From an uncultured Eubacteriales bacterium (GTDB lineage Bacteria; Bacillota; Clostridia; Christensenellales; Aristaeellaceae), in contig CADASK010000007.1 of assembly GCA_902790495.1 (NCBI GenBank), positions 1 to 43,076 on the forward strand: a stretch of 43,076 nucleotides of DNA, written 5' to 3'. Below the pieces are notes generated by a model. It ran no database searches, was not told the DNA's origin, and worked only from the letters and a program-made list of their open reading frames with translations. How positions within the stretch are numbered: position 1 is the stretch's first letter; the number at the start of each line of letters is the position of its first letter. Positions 13,258-40,246 of the stretch are shown here, piece after piece. Made by a program: the position numbers and the translations under genes.

Positions 13258-16083
<2,826 letters not shown>

Positions 16084-16145
16084 GGGGATGGGTTCCTTCC
16101 TCTTTATCAATCGGTGCCGGATGACGGCGGAAAACAGGCATCCAT

Positions 16146-16201
16146 ATGTTCGCATTGAAGGCGAACATCAAGAGTGTAGCACAGCGGGACGGCGCGCGCA
16201 A
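16146..16201 (-). promoter_or_regulatory. uvrA promoter with a palindromic operator candidate
   Basis: Minus-strand TTGCGC (16196-16201), a 17-bp spacer and TACACT (16173-16178). The expected start point, near 16166, falls in a perfect inverted repeat, ATGTTCGC(16146-16153)/GCGAACAT(16161-16168). The arm that reads CGAACATATG on the minus strand matches the left part of the Firmicutes LexA box (CGAAC-N4-GTTCG), but the right half is degraded. SOS control is inference. Confidence 0.55.
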
Positions 16202-16258
16202 GGGGAACAGGGGATTTTGTCGCGCCCTGGGCTTTTTCTCCGCGGCGCCGCGCAAACC

Positions 16259-16287
16259 TTGACTTTTCCATCCCGTTGTGCTACCCT
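16259..16287 (+). promoter_or_regulatory. Promoter of the tRNA-Arg gene
   Basis: TTGACT (16259-16264), a 17-bp spacer and TACCCT (16282-16287), placing the start about seven bases before the tRNA. Confidence 0.7.
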
Positions 16288-16300
16288 AACAGGGCGATGA

Positions 16301-16374
16301 GCGCCCGTAGCTCAGTTGGATAGAGCGTCAGACTCCGACTCTGAAGGCCACAGGTTCGACTCCTGCCGGGCGTA
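16301..16374 (+). tRNA. tRNA-Arg, anticodon CCG
   Basis: A 74-base cloverleaf: acceptor GCGCCCG/CGGGCGT, D arm GCTC/GAGC, anticodon stem TCAGA/TCTGA with loop CTCCGAC (anticodon CCG, reads CGG), and T arm with loop TTCGACT. Two small oddities are the terminal G-U acceptor pair and an A-C mismatch at the base of the T stem (49-65). CCA is not encoded. The 3' 44 bases belong to a 92-bp repeat that recurs at 19182, so an element has integrated here while leaving the gene whole. Confidence 0.93.
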
Positions 16375-16422
16375 CATGCGAAAACCCCTTGAAATCATTG
16401 GATTTTCAAGGGGTTTACTTTT
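16331..16422 (+). repeat. Left attachment site (attL), 92-bp direct repeat
   Basis: This segment is identical over all 92 bases to 19182-19273. It comprises the anticodon loop to the 3' end of the tRNA (44 bases) and 48 bases of downstream DNA, including the tRNA's terminator hairpin. The identity breaks at both ends (A versus T upstream, T versus A downstream). Integration that restores the tRNA 3' end is typical of tyrosine integrases. Confidence 0.93.
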
Positions 16423-16423
16423 T
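16380..16423 (+). terminator. Terminator of tRNA-Arg, carried inside the attachment repeat
   Basis: AAACCCCTTGAAATC pairs with GATTTTCAAGGGGTTT (one bulged T), followed by ACTTTTT. Because it lies within the 92-bp repeat, each end of the element has a copy, which insulates the element from transcription at both sides. Confidence 0.8.
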
Positions 16424-16448
16424 CTTCCAAGAGGGAAATTTGAGCGTT

Positions 16449-16470
16449 TAGGCGCTTATTTGGCGCTTAC
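16449..16470. repeat. Left pair of phased GGCGCTTA repeats (integrase arm-site candidates)
   Basis: GGCGCTTA occurs at 16451-16458 and 16462-16469, 11 bp apart. The 22 bases 16449-16470 are identical to 19056-19077 at the right end of the element. The second unit contains the integrase stop codon. By position these are candidates for arm-type integrase or excisionase binding sites; that is inference. Confidence 0.7.
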
Positions 16471-17657
16471 TCGCTCTTTTTTTGGTTTTCCCGCGCGTCT
16501 GCTATGGCCTTTGTGATAGCTGCGGTGGCGGCACTGTTAGCACTTGCGAACTGATGACTATAAATGTTTAATGTCGTGCTTGTTTGGCTGTGTCCCAGGC
16601 GTCCAGCGACGGAACGAACGTCAAGCCCTGAAGAAATCAAGGCGCTGGCGTGGCTGTGCCTGAGTCCGTAAAGGGTGATCGGCGGCAAATCGTACTTTTT
16701 AATTATTTTCCGAAAGCGCTGAGTCGGGCTTGATAAATCCATGCGCTGACCCTCGCTTGTGGTAAAGACTGCATCCGTTGTCCATGAGTCACCGAACGGT
16801 TCTTTGTAAATATCTTGCTCAATTTTCCAAAGGGTGAGTAAATCAAGCGCTTCGGCGGGCAAGTCAATGATTCTTTCGCTTGCTTTCGTTTTTGGTTTTG
16901 CTGTGCGCACAGTGTGACCGTCTTTCCTGACTGCTCCCGCGCGAATGGTGATTGTGTTTCCGTCAAGGTCGTTCCAGTCAAGGCCGATTAGCTCCCCTGG
17001 GCGGCATCCGGTGTAAACTGAAAGAGTGAAAAAGCATCGCCAAATCAGCGGTTCGGACTCCAAACAGGAAAGCAACTGCGCAATCTGGTGCGGTTCATAA
17101 AAGACGGTTTCGGGCGTGTCGTTCGGCGGCGCGTCCACTGCGTCCATCGGTGAAACTGTTATGATCTGTAACTTTTTGGCAAAATTGCATAGCAAGCGCA
17201 AGAGGGTGTGATAATGCTTGCGACTTGTCCCGGATAATCTCCCAGTTGTACTTCTTGCGCCTGCATTTTCTTTGGAAAGGTCAGAAAAGAAGCGTTGCAG
17301 GCGGCGCGGGGTGAGGTCTTGCACAGCGACGTTTCCAAACGCTTCTCTAATCTTTGAATTGTATAACCATTGGTAATTATTGATAGTTGAAAGGGCAAGC
17401 GTTTCGCGCTTGGCGTCCAAATAAAGGGTAAACAATTCGTCGAGCGTAACTTTTCGCGTTGCTGTGATCGTTCCCCGGCCTGCATCGGTTTCAAGCGCGT
17501 TTGCCTGCTTTTGTGCTTCGCGGCGCTGGGCGTTGACTGTCATTGTTTCGGGAAAACGGATTGTGCGATAAATACGGCGCTGTCGGCCGTCTGGCCCATA
17601 TCCTGCGGAAACTACCAATTGCCAACTATTGGCACTTTTCTGACGAACCGTTGCCAT
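16467..17657 (-). CDS. Tyrosine recombinase / phage-type integrase
   Basis: A 396-residue integrase. It has an N-terminal AP2-like arm-binding domain (residues 1-60), a SAM-like core-binding domain (70-165) and a catalytic domain (185-380). Catalytic residues visible are Arg219 (GCRPGEL), a Lys in TAKPKTK, Arg333, His356 (RLGHS) and the nucleophile Tyr366 (NIYSH). The box II motif reads YGLRH rather than the usual HxLRH, so the first His (position 330) is Tyr. The start at 17657 has a strong GGAGGTGG site; upstream in-frame ATGs do not. It lies next to attL, reads toward it, and presumably catalyses exchange between the 92-bp repeats. Confidence 0.93.
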   Translation of the reverse strand: MATVRQKSANSWQLVVSAGYGPDGRQRRIYRTIRFPETMTVNAQRREAQKQANALETDAGRGTITATRKVTLDELFTLYLDAKRETLALSTINNYQWLYNSKIREAFGNVAVQDLTPRRLQRFFSDLSKENAGARSTTGRLSGTSRKHYHTLLRLLCNFAKKLQIITVSPMDAVDAPPNDTPETVFYEPHQIAQLLSCLESEPLIWRCFFTLSVYTGCRPGELIGLDWNDLDGNTITIRAGAVRKDGHTVRTAKPKTKASERIIDLPAEALDLLTLWKIEQDIYKEPFGDSWTTDAVFTTSEGQRMDLSSPTQRFRKIIKKYDLPPITLYGLRHSHASALISSGLDVRSVAGRLGHSQTSTTLNIYSHQFASANSAATAAITKAIADARENQKKSE

Positions 17658-17713
17658 ACTATCCACCTCCAAAAGCATCTTAGCACGAAACGCAAATAAA
17701 AACAACTGTTCGC

Positions 17714-17742
17714 TTGCAAACGAGACACAAAGTGAGTATAAT
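17714..17742 (+). promoter_or_regulatory. Plus-strand promoter leading to the excisionase-like ORF
   Basis: TTGCAA (17714-17719), a 17-bp spacer and a perfect TATAAT (17737-17742). It points away from the integrase and gives a leader of about 257 bases that crosses the GT-rich tract. Confidence 0.7.
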
Positions 17743-17786
17743 GATAAATGGGGGACTCGACGTGAGAAAGCCGACTCGCGCGGTCT

Positions 17787-17870
17787 GTGTGGTATGGTAT
17801 GGTTCGGCTTGGTTGGGTTTGTCTGGGTTTGGCTTGGCCTGGTTTGTCTGGGCTTGGTTTGGACTCGCTG
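17787..17870 (+). repeat. GT-rich degenerate tandem tract
   Basis: About 84 bases made almost only of G and T on the plus strand, in overlapping words of the form GGYTTGG and GGGTTT, with at least nine GG or GGG runs. It separates the integrase start from the excisionase-like ORF (the 17658-18005 interval holds no gene). It could form two-tier quadruplexes, bind a protein or be an origin; none of these can be shown from sequence alone. Confidence 0.6.
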
Positions 17871-18005
17871 ACTCTGTTTCTTGATTTACGCGAACACGAA
17901 ACTACAGCGAACACAAACAAACAGAAAAGCAAAAATCACAAGCACACACTGAAACTTAAATTCTGTTGATCGGTCGAGAATTTTTGTGATGGAGGTGCTT
18001 TTTCT

Positions 18006-18098
18006 GTGTTCGTAAATATTGACGAACTCGCACGGCTGACCGGTTTTTCTTCTTACAGTTTGCGGAAACTTGCAAAGGCTGGGAAAATCCCATCATAG
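18006..18098 (+). CDS. Very short excisionase-like helix-turn-helix ORF (possibly truncated)
   Basis: A 30-codon ORF begins with GTG eight bases after GGAGGTG. Its product (NIDELARLTGFSSYSLRKLA followed by KAGKIPS) matches the first helix-turn-helix of MerR/Xis-type excisionases. The frame then hits TAG at 18096, yet reading on in frame gives PTSGRRFNL, which resembles the GRR wing that normally follows. It is therefore either a recently interrupted excisionase or a real minimal protein. Its place between integrase and regulator supports a role in excision. Confidence 0.5.
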   Translation: MFVNIDELARLTGFSSYSLRKLAKAGKIPS

Positions 18099-18228
18099 CC
18101 AACTTCTGGGCGTCGATTCAATCTCAAGCGCATCCCGTTTCCCGCTCTTGTCTGGTAGTCTTGCTTTCCCTTTCGGTACTCCCGTCTACCTTGGCGCGTT
18201 CTCGGTGTCCTCCGTTCACCGTGATTAG

Positions 18229-18257
18229 AGTATAAACCATATACTTGAAATTGTCAA
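18229..18257 (-). promoter_or_regulatory. Strong minus-strand promoter facing the excisionase-like ORF and integrase
   Basis: TTGACA (18252-18257), a 17-bp spacer and TATACT (18229-18234), read leftward. No convincing ORF starts just after it, so the transcript would run antisense to the excisionase-like ORF and then reach the integrase (leader about 560 bases), or end earlier as an antisense RNA. Confidence 0.72.
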
Positions 18258-18299
18258 GGGGTAAATTAAAGAATTTCATTAAAAATTTTACATGCTCTC

Positions 18300-18328
18300 T
18301 TGACAGAATCAATCAAACGGTTTATCCT
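18300..18328 (+). promoter_or_regulatory. Promoter of the XRE regulator
   Basis: TTGACA (18300-18305), a 17-bp spacer and TATCCT (18323-18328), 20 bases before the ATG at 18349. It is back-to-back with the minus promoter at 18229-18257; the A+T-rich 42 bases between their -35 boxes are the likely operator region. Confidence 0.75.
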
Positions 18329-18348
18329 ATCTGTGGAGGTGATTTTTA

Positions 18349-18558
18349 ATGGATATTGTGCAGAAAATCAAAGCTGCATGTGCTGCTCTCGGTGTTTCTC
18401 AATCAGAACTTGCTCGGAGAATCGGCACGACTCCGCAAAATCTAAATCAGCGTTTGAAAGTCGCAAAATTCACACAAGCGGAGTTAGAGCAGATAGGTCA
18501 AGCGATTGGCGCGGAGTATCATGCATTTTTCAGGCTCCCTGATGGCACGGAAATATAA
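18349..18558 (+). CDS. Small XRE/Cro-CI-type DNA-binding regulator
   Basis: A 69-residue protein consisting of one helix-turn-helix domain (about residues 4-60). The helices are VQKIKAACAALG, SQSELARRIG and TPQNLNQRLKV, the last being the recognition helix. GGAGGTGA lies seven bases before the ATG. It reads away from the divergent promoter pair, the classic layout of a repressor controlling an integrase/excisionase switch. It has no peptidase or dimerisation domain, so induction by a RecA-type cleavage is unlikely. The regulatory role is inferred from position and fold. Confidence 0.88.
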   Translation: MDIVQKIKAACAALGVSQSELARRIGTTPQNLNQRLKVAKFTQAELEQIGQAIGAEYHAFFRLPDGTEI

Positions 18559-18888
18559 TGCTGTTTCTCTTACTATGCGAATAGGCGTTCCCTGCGCTCC
18601 TGTGGCTTGCGCTGTGGGCTTTGCTGGCTGTGGCTGACAAATCCTCCACAGGAACGGAAAACGCCTGAGAGGGGGCAAGTATTCGCGCTGGTGCGGTGTC
18701 AGCTTTGCAGGCTGTGTCTGCTCCGTCCTCCACCTGGCTATGGCTTTTCTCGGTGGAGGGTGGCGGCGGTGGCTCTGCTGGCCTTGCCTGGGCGCTGGCT
18801 CTGCTCCTGGTCGGCCTGATCGGCGGCGGGGCGGTGTGCTCCTGGGTGGCTGTGTGCGCTTTGCTGGCATCGCTGGCAAGGCTGACGC
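18559..18888. other. Structured, gene-poor core of the element
   Basis: No ORF here has a ribosome site or a recognisable product. The DNA is GC/GT-rich with long inverted repeats. GCGAAT(18577-18582)/ATTCGC(18681-18686), AGGCGTT(18583-18589)/AACGCCT(18660-18666) and CCTGTGG(18599-18605)/CCACAGG(18646-18652) nest into one imperfect hairpin of about 110 bases with a 40-base loop. A second stem is CCTCCACC(18727-18734)/GGTGGAGG(18752-18759). The word GCTTTGCTGGC recurs near 18618 and 18858. It may be an origin-like or structured-RNA region. Confidence 0.6.
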
Positions 18889-18917
18889 TTGCAGGATTAT
18901 CCTTCTTTTGGTATAAT
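18889..18917 (+). promoter_or_regulatory. Promoter of the candidate small RNA
   Basis: TTGCAG (18889-18894), a 17-bp spacer and a perfect TATAAT (18912-18917). No ORF with a ribosome site follows before the terminator at 18952-18991. Confidence 0.7.
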
Positions 18918-18923
18918 GTGGAT

Positions 18924-18990
18924 GTTGCATCCCCCTTTCTCTCTGTAGACGGCCTGTCCCCTTTGCCTGCCGGGGATGGGCTGTTTTTCT
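18924..18990 (+). ncRNA. Candidate small RNA of about 65 bases
   Basis: The interval between the promoter at 18889-18917 and the hairpin terminator at 18952-18991 would yield an RNA of about 65 bases. It has a pyrimidine-rich 5' part (CCCCCTTTCTCTCT) and ends in the terminator stem. Nothing in it is protein-coding. I know of no family it belongs to; the call rests only on the promoter-terminator pair. Confidence 0.5.
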
Positions 18991-18991
18991 T
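18952..18991 (+). terminator. Terminator of the candidate small RNA
   Basis: GCCTGTCCCC(18952-18961) pairs with GGGGATGGGC(18972-18981) with two G-U pairs and a 10-base loop, followed by TGTTTTTCTT. Confidence 0.75.
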
Positions 18992-19077
18992 GGGGTTTAT
19001 CTGGGGTTTATTTGGGGTTTACAGGGGCTTATTTCGGGCGCTTATTAGGCGCTTATAGGCGCTTATTTGGCGCTTAC
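18992..19077. repeat. Phased array of 8-base repeats at the right end of the element
   Basis: Eight copies of GG(G/C)G(T/C)TTA start at 18992, 19003, 19014, 19024, 19037, 19048, 19058 and 19069. The spacings are 11, 11, 10, 13, 11, 10 and 11, close to one helical turn, so all face the same side of the DNA. The first three read GGGGTTTA and the last four GGCGCTTA. The last two, with flanks, match the pair beside attL exactly over 22 bp. They are candidates for arm-type recombinase or excisionase sites. Confidence 0.8.
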
Positions 19078-19181
19078 AGAAACGAAATGAAGCAAAACGA
19101 AACCGCATGAAAAGCCCGAAAATCCTTGCAAAATAAGGACTATTCGCAACGGACAAAAACCGCTCAAAATGGCTTTTAACT

Positions 19182-19273
19182 GACTCCGACTCTGAAGGCC
19201 ACAGGTTCGACTCCTGCCGGGCGTACATGCGAAAACCCCTTGAAATCATTGGATTTTCAAGGGGTTTACTTTT
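19182..19273 (+). repeat. Right attachment site (attR), 92-bp direct repeat with tRNA 3' fragment
   Basis: Identical to 16331-16422. Its first 44 bases (19182-19225) are a fragment of the tRNA-Arg 3' half without a 5' half, so this is the displaced end of the element and not a second gene. The terminator hairpin is included. Confidence 0.93.
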
Positions 19274-19572
19274 ATCTTTTTATCATCGAATTTTCTGAAA
19301 TGGTTACTGTTTGGTTACTACTCGCCGGAAAATCAGCTTTTCCGGGCGTCTTTCAAGGCCTCCGTGCTTCATTATATTACCGATATGGTCATATATCGAT
19401 GAGCTTAGAAATTTGAAATTTCAGATTGGCAGTGTTGTTTTTATTGCTGGTGTGATAGAATATATGCAGCGCAATGGGAGAGGAGTGTTATTCCGTGAAA
19501 CCCGCGGCTACCTATATGGTTACATGTATCTATCACATTTGTTTTTACTGCCTTAAGAAGGAGATGGCAAAA
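19274..19572. other. A+T-rich interval after attR, with one hairpin and an imperfect repeat
   Basis: No gene is supported. It contains the perfect hairpin CCGGAAAA/TTTTCCGG (19325-19345) and the first member of an imperfect direct repeat (19338-19365), whose partner lies at 20216-20242. GGTTACT occurs twice just before the hairpin. A convincing promoter for the downstream gene was not found; TAGAAT near 19455 is the best -10 candidate. Confidence 0.5.
19338..19365 (+). repeat. Imperfect flanking repeat, left member
   Basis: TTTTCCGGGCGTCTTTCAAG and the following GCCTCCGT match 20216-20242 at about 24 of 28 positions, with one base gap. The two copies bracket the low-GC secreted gene. Confidence 0.6.
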
Positions 19573-20145
19573 ATGAGAAAATTGATCACCTTGATAATGG
19601 CCTGCATGATGTTCTGCTCTATCGCAGCGGCTGATACGATTGACGTGACCAGTATGACAATTCATGATCTGCAAGAATTGCAGGAACAGATCGGCATGGA
19701 ACTATCGCAAAGGGTACTAAAGGGACAGGAAGTACCTAAAACAGAATTCACTCCTTCACCTGGAAAGAAAACGTTGCTCATAGACGATAACGATTACAAA
19801 ATTTACTTGACAGGGAAATACAACGATAGCTACGGGACATTCTATGCTGAAGCAGTGTGCGAAAACTATAGCGGAAAAGCTCTCAGAGCGTGGATGGGTG
19901 ACGGCAACCTTGACGGATGGAAGCTGTCCTTCCCTGTCTTCTTTCCAGAACAAAAGTCTGGAGAAAAGCAAAAAAGCAGTATGATTATACAATATACAGA
20001 AGCCATGATGAAAAGTCCGAGCGAGATGAAGACATTCATCTTTACAATAACAACAGAAGACACTGAAGACGAATTTGGAAATGTTTATAAGCAATACGGC
20101 CCTTTCACTTTGCACTTTGAAGTTGGGAAATGGGTGAAAAATTAA
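19573..20145 (+). CDS. Small secreted protein related to the DUF4352-type paralogs at their N-terminus
   Basis: A 190-residue exported protein. Residues 1-19 are a signal peptide (RKLITLIMACMMFCSIAAA). They are followed by IDVTSMTIHDLQELQEQIGM, which matches the segment VDLSVMRTDELVKLREEID of the secreted proteins at 40974 and 42078. The rest forms a strand-rich domain (about 65-188), perhaps immunoglobulin-like. The ATG at 19573 has AAGGAG nine bases upstream; the longer open frame begins with non-export-like sequence. It is poorer in GC than its neighbours and is flanked by imperfect repeats, which suggests transfer. Function unknown. Confidence 0.8.
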   Translation: MRKLITLIMACMMFCSIAAADTIDVTSMTIHDLQELQEQIGMELSQRVLKGQEVPKTEFTPSPGKKTLLIDDNDYKIYLTGKYNDSYGTFYAEAVCENYSGKALRAWMGDGNLDGWKLSFPVFFPEQKSGEKQKSSMIIQYTEAMMKSPSEMKTFIFTITTEDTEDEFGNVYKQYGPFTLHFEVGKWVKN

Positions 20146-20215
20146 ATGCTAGAGCAGAAAAGGCAAGAACTAAAACAGCACAAAGATTGAAGTGGCGCCT
20201 CACAGTAAAAGCACC

Positions 20216-20242
20216 CTTTCCGGGCTCTTTCAAAGCCTCAGT
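20216..20242 (+). repeat. Imperfect flanking repeat, right member
   Basis: CTTTCCGGGCTCTTTCAAAG and the following CCTCAGT mirror the copy at 19338-19365. Confidence 0.6.
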
Positions 20243-20282
20243 AACACTGTTAGGGTTAGCATTTGCGTTCATCCCTCTGCGC

Positions 20283-20311
20283 TTGCAAAGCGGCGCGGTC
20301 CGTCGTATAAT
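20283..20311 (+). promoter_or_regulatory. Promoter of the membrane-anchored protein gene
   Basis: TTGCAA (20283-20288), a 17-bp spacer and a perfect TATAAT (20306-20311), 36 bases before the ATG. Confidence 0.8.
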
Positions 20312-20346
20312 ACCCATGCGACAAGGAAACGAAGAGGAGCGCGCGC

Positions 20347-21498
20347 ATGCAGGCAAGAGGCAGATCCCGCAGGAGCGGATTGCAGCAGGAGACGAGGCCG
20401 AGCCGCTGGAGACAGATGCGGAACTGGCTGATCGTGATCGCCGTGGTGGCCCTGGCCGTCACAGTGTTTCGTGCTGTGCGGTCCCAGCGGGAGGTGACGG
20501 AGATCGAGGCCGTCGCTATGCCCTGCACGGCGGATCAGAACGTGACGCCCTTCGGCGACAGTGTGCTGTATTACGACGGGGCCTCCATCCACTGTCTGGC
20601 GGGCGGAGGCGGCATCCGCTGGAGCTTCCCCGTGGGCACGGGCGCGTCCTTCGCGGCGTCGGATACCCACATGGTGGTCTGGTCAGGCACCCAGCTGTTC
20701 ATCGTCGACCGCAACGGCCGCCCTTCCTATAATGAGAACATGAACGGCCAGGTGCAGTTCGCCCGGGTGGGCAGCAAGTACGCGGCCGTGGTGGTGGGCG
20801 GCGACACCGAGCCCGACCTGCTCATCAAGAACCTGGACGGCACCCAGGTGGACGAGGAGAGCGAGGCCTACACGGGCATGCTCCTGCTGGACGTGGGCTT
20901 CTACGGCGAGGCGGACCAGTACATGTGGACGCTGGCGCTGGACGTCTACGGCACGGCGATCAACACGGTGATGAACACCTTCCAGGTGGGCAAGATGAAC
21001 ACCGGCGTGGTGGACCTGGGCGAATTCCTCGCCTACAAGGTGCTCTTTGAGGACAACAAGCTGCGGGTGTTCACGACCCAGCAGATGTACACCTACGACT
21101 ACAAGGCCGTGCAGGACATGGGCGCGACCCAGCTGGTCTACGGCTGGCAGCTGATCGACTATGACGTGCCCGAGCGCGGCAGCGCGCCGATGCTCCTGGC
21201 GGCCACCAAGCAGCTGGCGGAGGGCAGCCTCACGGAGCTGCGGGTGCTCACGGGTACCCAGGACCGCCGCTATACGCTGCCCAGCGCCTGCATCGGCGCG
21301 GGCGTGCAGGGCCGGAACATCTACGCGGTGTCGAAGAACTACCTCTACCGCGCGGACATCGACCGCCAGCGCTTCTTCGGCTACGCCCTGCCGATCCCCG
21401 AGAGCAAGCAGGTGACGAAGCTGATCGGCCTGACCTCCAACGGCAGGGCCATTGTGGCCTGCGGCCAGGAGGTCTACTCCGTGCAGCTGCCGAAGTAA
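20347..21498 (+). CDS. Membrane-anchored protein with a repetitive beta-strand ectodomain (DUF5711-like)
   Basis: A 383-residue protein. It has a basic cytoplasmic start (1-24), one membrane segment (about 25-45, NWLIVIAVVALAVTVF) and a long extracellular part of repeated strand motifs such as VLYYDGASIHCL, MVVWSGTQLFIVDRNG and IYAVSKNYLYRADID, as in beta-propeller-like folds. The organisation recalls the DUF5711 proteins of Clostridia; that assignment is from memory. No catalytic motif is visible. GAGGAG lies seven bases before the ATG. It is transcribed alone, from its own promoter to the terminator at 21543-21580. GC content returns to the host level here. Confidence 0.78.
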   Translation: MQARGRSRRSGLQQETRPSRWRQMRNWLIVIAVVALAVTVFRAVRSQREVTEIEAVAMPCTADQNVTPFGDSVLYYDGASIHCLAGGGGIRWSFPVGTGASFAASDTHMVVWSGTQLFIVDRNGRPSYNENMNGQVQFARVGSKYAAVVVGGDTEPDLLIKNLDGTQVDEESEAYTGMLLLDVGFYGEADQYMWTLALDVYGTAINTVMNTFQVGKMNTGVVDLGEFLAYKVLFEDNKLRVFTTQQMYTYDYKAVQDMGATQLVYGWQLIDYDVPERGSAPMLLAATKQLAEGSLTELRVLTGTQDRRYTLPSACIGAGVQGRNIYAVSKNYLYRADIDRQRFFGYALPIPESKQVTKLIGLTSNGRAIVACGQEVYSVQLPK

Positions 21499-35406: not shown

Positions 35407-35489
35407 AGTTCGCCTTCAAAGGATGCGGCCCGAAGAGTCCAGAGGCGATCGGAAAGCCTCTGGTCGCCGCCCGCAGGCGGCGAAATCTA
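35407..35489 (-). repeat. Intergenic double-hairpin repeat, copy 3 (diverged)
   Basis: Read on the minus strand it matches copies 1 and 2 in layout. GATTTCGCCGCC leads into the stem CGCCGCC/GGCGGCG (35465-35482) with loop TGCG. The second stem, CCAGAGGC/GCCTCTGG (35439-35463), has loop TTTCCGATC, against TTTGCGATC in copy 1. TTCG and CTTTG follow as in the others. Both stems differ in sequence from copy 1 yet remain perfectly paired. It lies five bases after the uvrC stop. Confidence 0.75.
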
Positions 35490-40057: not shown

Positions 40058-40106
40058 GCAGTTACAATATGCATCTCAGATATACATTTGCGAAATGGTA
40101 GCAAAG

Positions 40107-40246
40107 GTTCCGCGCCTGCGGGCGCGGGCAGGGGGCTTTGCGGTCGGTCCGGGGCTGCCGCCCGCTCTCCGCTGAAAACTCCATAACATGGAGTTTTCCG
40201 GGCGCCCTGCACCCCTTCGCTGCATACCCTTACTTTGGTATGCTGA
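40107..40246 (+). repeat. Intergenic double-hairpin repeat, copy 2 (with an inserted hairpin)
   Basis: The first 35 bases (40108-40142) equal 2878-2912, and the 17-base block CCCTGCACCCCTTCGCT (40205-40221) equals 2919-2935. Between them copy 1 has 6 bases and copy 2 has 62. The extra DNA includes a perfect stem AAAACTCCAT(40175-40184)/ATGGAGTTTT(40188-40197). The last hairpin is GCATACC/GGTATGC (40222-40242) around the shared ACTTTGGT. It sits just after hsp20. Confidence 0.85.

Follow-up and report, generated by a model that had tools for sequence, protein, structure and literature searches.

Satellites of the phage-inducible chromosomal island (PICI) type combine an integrase and attachment (att) repeats with a replication module and a packaging or capsid-interference gene, and they are induced and packaged by a helper phage. 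Phage-inducible chromosomal minimalist islands (PICMI) are satellites of Vibrionaceae that lie beside fis and, as described in the available portion of the source, carry an integrase, a small AlpA/HTH excisionase-type protein, and a DUF3987 or DUF5906 primase, without capsid-remodelling genes (PMC10803314). The same portion describes a 6,110-bp PICMI whose genes are int, alpA, a putative primase, and three more, and gives the 6.1-kb PICMI115 as the smallest satellite with characterised activity (PMC10803314). For defective 'proto-hitcher' elements, gene loss leading to dependence on others for movement is described in the accessible part of another report (PMC11389934). Here, we analysed a 43,076-nt contig of an uncultured Eubacteriales bacterium (the window), in which a 2.85-kb element (16331–19273) lies at a tRNA-Arg(CCG) gene. 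With a probability of roughly 0.72, this element arose by internal deletion from a small integrative element of the phage-satellite-like type. It retains both att repeats, arm-like repeats at both ends, the integrase on the left, and an XRE regulator on the right. No matching description stood among the papers listed by literature searches on small satellites encoding int and an excisionase, on the smallest or cryptic integrative elements, and on Clostridia or Faecalibacterium satellites.

The target tRNA-Arg(CCG) gene (16301–16375, plus strand; ARAGORN and Rfam RF00005) has its 3′ half inside the left copy of a direct repeat. This copy, attL (16331–16422, plus strand), was delimited by repeat search and hairpin prediction. 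It starts 4 nt 5′ of the anticodon, covers the tRNA 3′ half, and continues beyond the tRNA gene to include a terminator hairpin. The second copy found by repeat search, attR (19182–19273, plus strand), is identical in 92/92 bp at a spacing of 2851. The original prediction, made by a model from the letters of this DNA, had described exactly such perfect 92-bp repeats from the anticodon loop onwards, bounding 2.85 kb. A search of the window for the first 17 bases of the repeat found two occurrences, even when 3 mismatches were tolerated, and an Rfam scan of 15500–20500 returned only the tRNA above the gathering score. The GC content over 16331–19273 is 0.496, compared with ~0.64–0.69 in the left flank and ~0.65 just past 20250. 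The tRNA 3′ half and terminator carried by the element would restore the tRNA gene upon integration. In seven tRNA-Arg relatives, the repeat likewise begins 29–31 bases into the tRNA gene.

The original prediction had also taken the perfect repeats as a sign of recent integration. Their use as a simple clock was rejected, because the repeats of relatives reach through the terminator as well (91 bp at locus L131). Besides recent integration, capture or conversion may therefore account for the identity of the repeats. The repeat at L053 consists of 65 bp, one mismatch, and then 20 bp in the same register.

The predicted integrase was confirmed as an open frame of 396 amino acids (16467–17657, minus strand), which matches Phage_integrase PF00589 at E 3.9e-24 and has a SAM domain at the N-terminus. 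In an 11-row alignment of integrases, the columns R219, K256, R333, H356, and Y366, which we take to be the catalytic residues of a tyrosine integrase, are invariant. The first residue of the HxxR box is usually His in tyrosine integrases; here it is Tyr, as in most rows of the alignment. The left arm-like repeats (16444–16469, plus strand) comprise two GGCGCTTA copies spaced 11 bp plus GCGTTTA, and the right ones (18992–19076, plus strand) comprise three GGGGTTTA copies, GGGGCTTA, and four GGCGCTTA copies, with the GGGGTTTA copies directly before the GGCGCTTA set. The window holds seven GGCGCTTA copies, a number reached in 1/100 shuffles; six of them belong to the element, with two next to attL and four ahead of attR. 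The GGGGTTTA arm type recurs at L062 and L131, and several relatives have other short sequences repeated likewise inside both ends. Integration by tyrosine integrases generally involves arm and core sites; given this biology and the intact conserved columns, the integrase would be expected to bind the GGCGCTTA-type arm sites and to recombine in the tRNA anticodon region.

Two features of the middle of the element point to a deletion. The first is the excisionase gene (xis; 18006–18158, plus strand). The excisionase likeness noted in the original prediction holds, but the gene is not intact. The first frame (18006–18095) stops after 30 codons at an in-frame TAG (18096–18098), and the same frame resumes with PTSGRRFNLKRI..., a short piece that resembles the second half of the excisionase domain and ends early, with the normal C-terminal part missing. 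In contrast, xis is uninterrupted in all 12 aligned relatives. The 30-residue first piece of this interrupted gene scored 21.4 bits against HTH_17, below the 27-bit cut-off.

The second feature lies upstream of the predicted XRE/Cro-type regulator (18349–18558, plus strand), which is an open frame of 69 amino acids. The divergent promoters that had been predicted here were found as TTGACA-17-TATCCT upstream of XRE (18300–18328, plus strand) and TTGACA-17-TATACT pointing at int through the antisense xis (18229–18257, minus strand). XRE homologues at E ≤ 1e-5 were present in 39 of the 308 genomes of the family, the host included, with 45 matches. The 20 fetched regions held 21 of the 44 other matches, and one more XRE locus was taken from L131; 21 of these loci had upstream sequence (the first XRE of L120, at the end of its fetched stretch, had none and was left out). 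The region upstream of XRE with its divergent promoters is conserved across the XRE loci, and in 17 of the 21 it is followed on the divergent side by a ~90-residue gene (L124 and L127 gave only partial matches). No match to this gene was found in the window upstream of XRE. What the window retains is the leftward promoter (18257–18229) and ribosome-site-like sequences at 18213–18209 and 18192–18189, after which the broken end of xis follows. The broken xis and the conserved promoter without its gene thus point to a deletion. Its putative junction, at which what is left of xis would meet the leader of the divergent gene, would lie near 18157–18190.

At L115, the first 75 residues of the small gene match PHROG 434, a RecE-like exonuclease, at E 1.5e-11, and no Pfam family scored above the cut-off. 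The pairing of a 69-residue XRE with a divergent ~90-residue gene of this RecE-associated type forms a conserved module in L111–L129. At L062 and L059, the small gene is accompanied not by XRE but by a nearby Arc-like frame (so called from reading), and at L122 the XRE frame is interrupted by a TGA.

The layout expected before the deletion is exemplified by L111, a 5.18-kb element at tRNA-Trp in a genus mate (G003), with the order int, xis, a gene for a 509-residue DUF5906 protein, the small gene, divergent XRE, arms, and att; its XRE is 64% identical to that of the window. We infer, from gene order, a parent with int, xis, a primase-type gene, the small gene, divergent XRE, arms, and att. A single deletion of ~2.5 kb, starting at the end of xis and reaching the leader of the small divergent gene, with its junction near 18157–18190, would have removed the middle, and the removal of ~2.5 kb from an L111-like order yields the layout and size seen in the window. 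The original prediction had called the element complete-looking. Both ends are indeed present, but the broken xis and the promoter without a gene do not support completeness. It had also named larger islands of the same layout as the finding that would make this element a deletion; such islands were found in related genomes (L111, 5.18 kb; L131, 11.8 kb), although none was shown for the same species. L131, from another family of the same order, resembles the window in its tRNA-Arg site with a perfect repeat at the equivalent position, its related integrase, its XRE with a divergent promoter, and its GGGGTTTA arms. Unlike the window, it keeps CI-like and Cro-like genes, a 940-residue primase, a sigma factor, and Zeta-like and Abi_2 genes, and it has a HIRAN protein in the place of the small gene.

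Related elements were surveyed in the 308 family genomes and, by profile search, in 396 genomes of the order. The integrase was matched at E ≤ 1e-60 in 13/308 and at E ≤ 1e-70 in 15/396 genomes, the host included in both counts, and in 9 of the 12 other family genomes the fetched flank contained a tRNA gene, for Arg, Trp, or Leu. Larger elements carry integrases 36–50% identical to that of the window. Among 60 related integrase places, 16 elements could be delimited by direct repeats, with sizes of 4.8, 5.2, 6.2, 6.7, 7.3, 7.5, 8.6, 8.7, 9.8, 10.0, 10.7, 11.8, 11.9, 13.1, 13.5, and 13.6 kb; the remaining 44 lacked an adjacent tRNA gene, ran into a contig end, or showed no repeat. The element in the window is therefore the smallest of 17 delimited elements, a ranking that applies to elements delimitable within ~20 kb and includes weaker ends (a 16-bp repeat for the 10.7-kb element and 20–24 bp for L111, L140, and L149). 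Integrase C-terminal remnants beside tRNA-Arg genes at L066 (G005) and L067 (G020) represent decayed relatives at the same kind of site.

Several relatives have xis and replication genes besides int, together with a CI-like repressor and a Cro-like gene, the last two named in part from reading. PHROG scans of 19 selected proteins, 3 of them without a match, identified a terminase small subunit at L055, L059, and L064; a head maturation protease at L058; a DnaC-like loader and a replication initiation protein at L053; a RusA-like resolvase at L055; exonuclease VIII at L062; a sigma factor at L058 and L131; a primase at L131; and tape-measure-like proteins at L059 and L065. The absence of other virion genes was judged from lists of open reading frames (ORFs). 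DUF3987 was found at L058. This gene mix fits phage satellites. An integrase scan for close relatives gave one match in genome contigs, at 26%, and none in viral contigs; an alignment scan of the viral contigs gave four loci with 24–27% identity. Among phage records, 2210 had an integrase match, all below 60% identity, and Paenibacillus phages accounted for 19 of the 20 listed.

When 226 mechanically called ORFs of the relatives were compared with 16423–20300, the only match at E < 1e-5 outside the integrase was the XRE homologue; two weak matches (1.3e-4 and 3.4e-4) were antisense to xis. This comparison matched no transfer, replication, or virion gene in the element, in agreement with the original prediction. 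It also matched no packaging or capsid-interference gene and revealed no clear remnant of CI, cro, or primase. As regards a relaxase, a hallmark of integrative mobilizable elements, the largest ORF of the element other than int (148 amino acids) had no PHROG match.

Several observations weigh against an internal deletion of a satellite-like element. The integrase of L111 is only ~25% identical to that of the window, and no undeleted parent copy was found, the closest integrases being 50% identical, so that the parent is reconstructed from gene order alone. Four of the 21 XRE loci (L119, L122, L130, and L131) also lack the small gene. The xis genes of relatives were named from position and HTH likeness (that of L053 had no PHROG match, that of L111 no Pfam match). 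A virion-type gene was not seen in every relative, so 'satellite' describes part of the family as judged from selected ORFs. In addition, int, XRE, the 92-bp repeats, and the arm sites are all intact, which a dead element would not need. That genes were lost here, rather than gained in the relatives, is what we infer, with no date attached.

This intactness would be explained if the element were a functional minimal hitchhiker of <3 kb, with int, an XRE autorepressor, and att and arm sites of its own, and with Xis, replication, and packaging supplied by a helper phage or a co-resident satellite. An open integrase with conserved columns, 92/92 repeats, six GGCGCTTA sites, and an XRE with its promoter are all consistent with this, and minimalist satellites do exist, such as the 6,110-bp PICMI in the available part of that report (PMC10803314). 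We nevertheless consider it unlikely: xis is broken, no second element this small occurs among the 17 delimited, and the exact att 23-mer is absent from all viral contigs searched. Nor is a resident helper or sister element visible in the host's own 94.5%-complete assembly, where the only related integrase is that of the element and the search for a large terminase gave nothing convincing (one match at E 1.2e-4, with a query that also matches in 11 of 14 control genomes). Of the minimal satellite originally suggested, the borrowing of a helper's machinery fits the lineage, since the relatives are satellite-like, but a finished minimal design is not supported. If the hitchhiker were real, it would be a parasite of satellites, comparable to miniature inverted-repeat transposable elements (MITEs) for transposons, and the deletion would also have placed int 3′ of an XRE-controlled promoter, with the integrase switched by XRE.

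Gradual decay of the middle of an old tRNA-island remnant is less probable still. It would account for the two defects in xis, and the right flank (19274–20271), which is AT-rich, unmatched in the genus, and has an arm-like repeat of its own, suggests older layered insertions. However, all 92 bp of the repeats are identical, even across a terminator that differs among genus mates, the integrase and XRE are open, and no clear relics of CI, cro, or primase were found. An assembly artefact joining two element ends, for which the 78 contigs and 4.5% contamination of the assembly and the inversion of the tRNA relative to its neighbour gene compared with G005 could speak, is very improbable, because the imperfect repeats that the putative junction overlaps (18 nt at 83% and 16 nt at 81%) do not have the length to mislead an assembler, and the element is embedded in a 43-kb contig.

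Under an internal deletion, the remaining parts suggest how the element would behave. XRE is predicted to repress its own promoter and the leftover leftward promoter, given their conserved position. The leftward promoter would now read across the antisense xis toward int, and since it faces int with no intrinsic terminator listed between them on that strand in our scan, int may have come under XRE control. Loss of a working Xis predicts stable integration; lacking replication genes as well, the element would move only if a related element provided Xis in trans. The element is probably able to integrate but locked in.

The element has further features. A promoter-like site, TTGCAA-17-TATAAT (17714–17742, plus strand; promoter scan), lies upstream of xis and of an array (17795–17862; TRF). 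The phased repeats of the original prediction are present as this array, but they are degenerate and G/T-rich, with 15- and 25-bp periods; one pattern for the array matched 5 of 170 loci, four being the window's own DNA and the fifth L168. The scan counted 9 promoter-like sites versus a shuffle mean of 2.7, and 5 terminators versus 4.6, i.e., no excess of terminators. To the right of XRE, the DNA is unconserved in the fetched relatives except for arm repeats and weak matches. A candidate short transcript (18919–18986, plus strand), or merely the XRE-side terminator, follows a promoter, TTGCAG-17-TATAAT (18889–18917), that was identified by eye and is missing from the promoter scan list. Its hairpin (18947–18986; z −3.7 for 18919–18992) is strong, but there was no Rfam match. 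The small RNA of the original prediction thus amounts to this by-eye promoter plus a terminator, and the suggestion of a regulatory-RNA carrier found no support beyond the pair. The stretch 18559–18900 is strongly T- and G-rich and non-coding-looking (AT skew −0.42 in 18500–18999), with weak matches in other loci; it could be an origin or packaging region.

An empty site was sought in related genomes. In the genus mate G005, the same tRNA gene lacks the element and is followed by other genes (NUDIX-like and others by reading), which in the host lie on contig C34. None of eight tRNA-Arg(CCG) regions (L068 and L071–L077) matches the window integrase, other integrases not having been sought there. 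However, the G005 flanks are not collinear with the window and do not give a clean attB. In G005 (L068), orf20347 is the immediate upstream neighbour of the tRNA gene, on the other strand, whereas in the window the tRNA gene is inverted relative to it. The window therefore has an inversion or other rearrangement at the tRNA locus. A comparison of 16257–20272 with L068 4121–5486 places a rearrangement breakpoint at the element locus, where the other tRNA neighbour is uvrA-like (by reading). Besides C34, the post-tRNA terminator of G005 was found in the host only at C56:55–99, beside unrelated DNA, and was dismissed as a chance terminator likeness. The flank 19274–20271 had no DNA match in 11 other genomes of the genus, and similarity to G005 starts at 20272. 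Right of attR lies a tandem TGGTTACT pair (19301–19319; 0/100 shuffles, for a pattern picked after seeing it), at a distance from the repeat similar to that of the left arm sites. This flank may represent the left end of an older element in tandem, one whose integrase has been lost. Elsewhere in the window, a dispersed repeat family (2868–2947, 35415–35488, and 40106–40146) recurs on the host contigs C34 and C59.

Compared with known systems, the larger relatives resemble PICI and capsid-forming PICI (cf-PICI) in having int, CI/cro-like genes, xis, replication genes, and, in some, a terminase small subunit or head protease. The element in the window shares with them only the integrase and att repeats, and has neither replication or packaging genes nor a CI/cro pair. 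With PICMI, as far as the available portion of that report describes them, L111 has the integrase, a xis-like gene, and DUF5906 in common. L140, a 6.74-kb element at tRNA-Trp in G010, has int, a xis-like frame, and a 445-residue frame, and L111 and L140 are PICMI-like minimal elements within the genus of the window. The window element shares with PICMI, so described, the integrase (PF00589), but lies in tRNA-Arg and not beside fis, has a broken xis and no primase relic, and has no known helper. If still mobile, it would be well below the 6.1 kb given for PICMI115 in the accessible part of the report (PMC10803314). Proto-hitchers, as portrayed in the portion of that source at hand, differ in that the loss here would be from a satellite, itself already dependent. 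The case illustrates how a small satellite-like element can collapse to its two ends and keep its integration machinery intact, and it suggests that the order harbours a set of small satellite-like elements integrating at tRNA genes, including a PICMI-like 5-kb member of the genus. Set beside these systems, the element looks like a known kind of element shortened by deletion, not like a tiny but complete element of a new kind.

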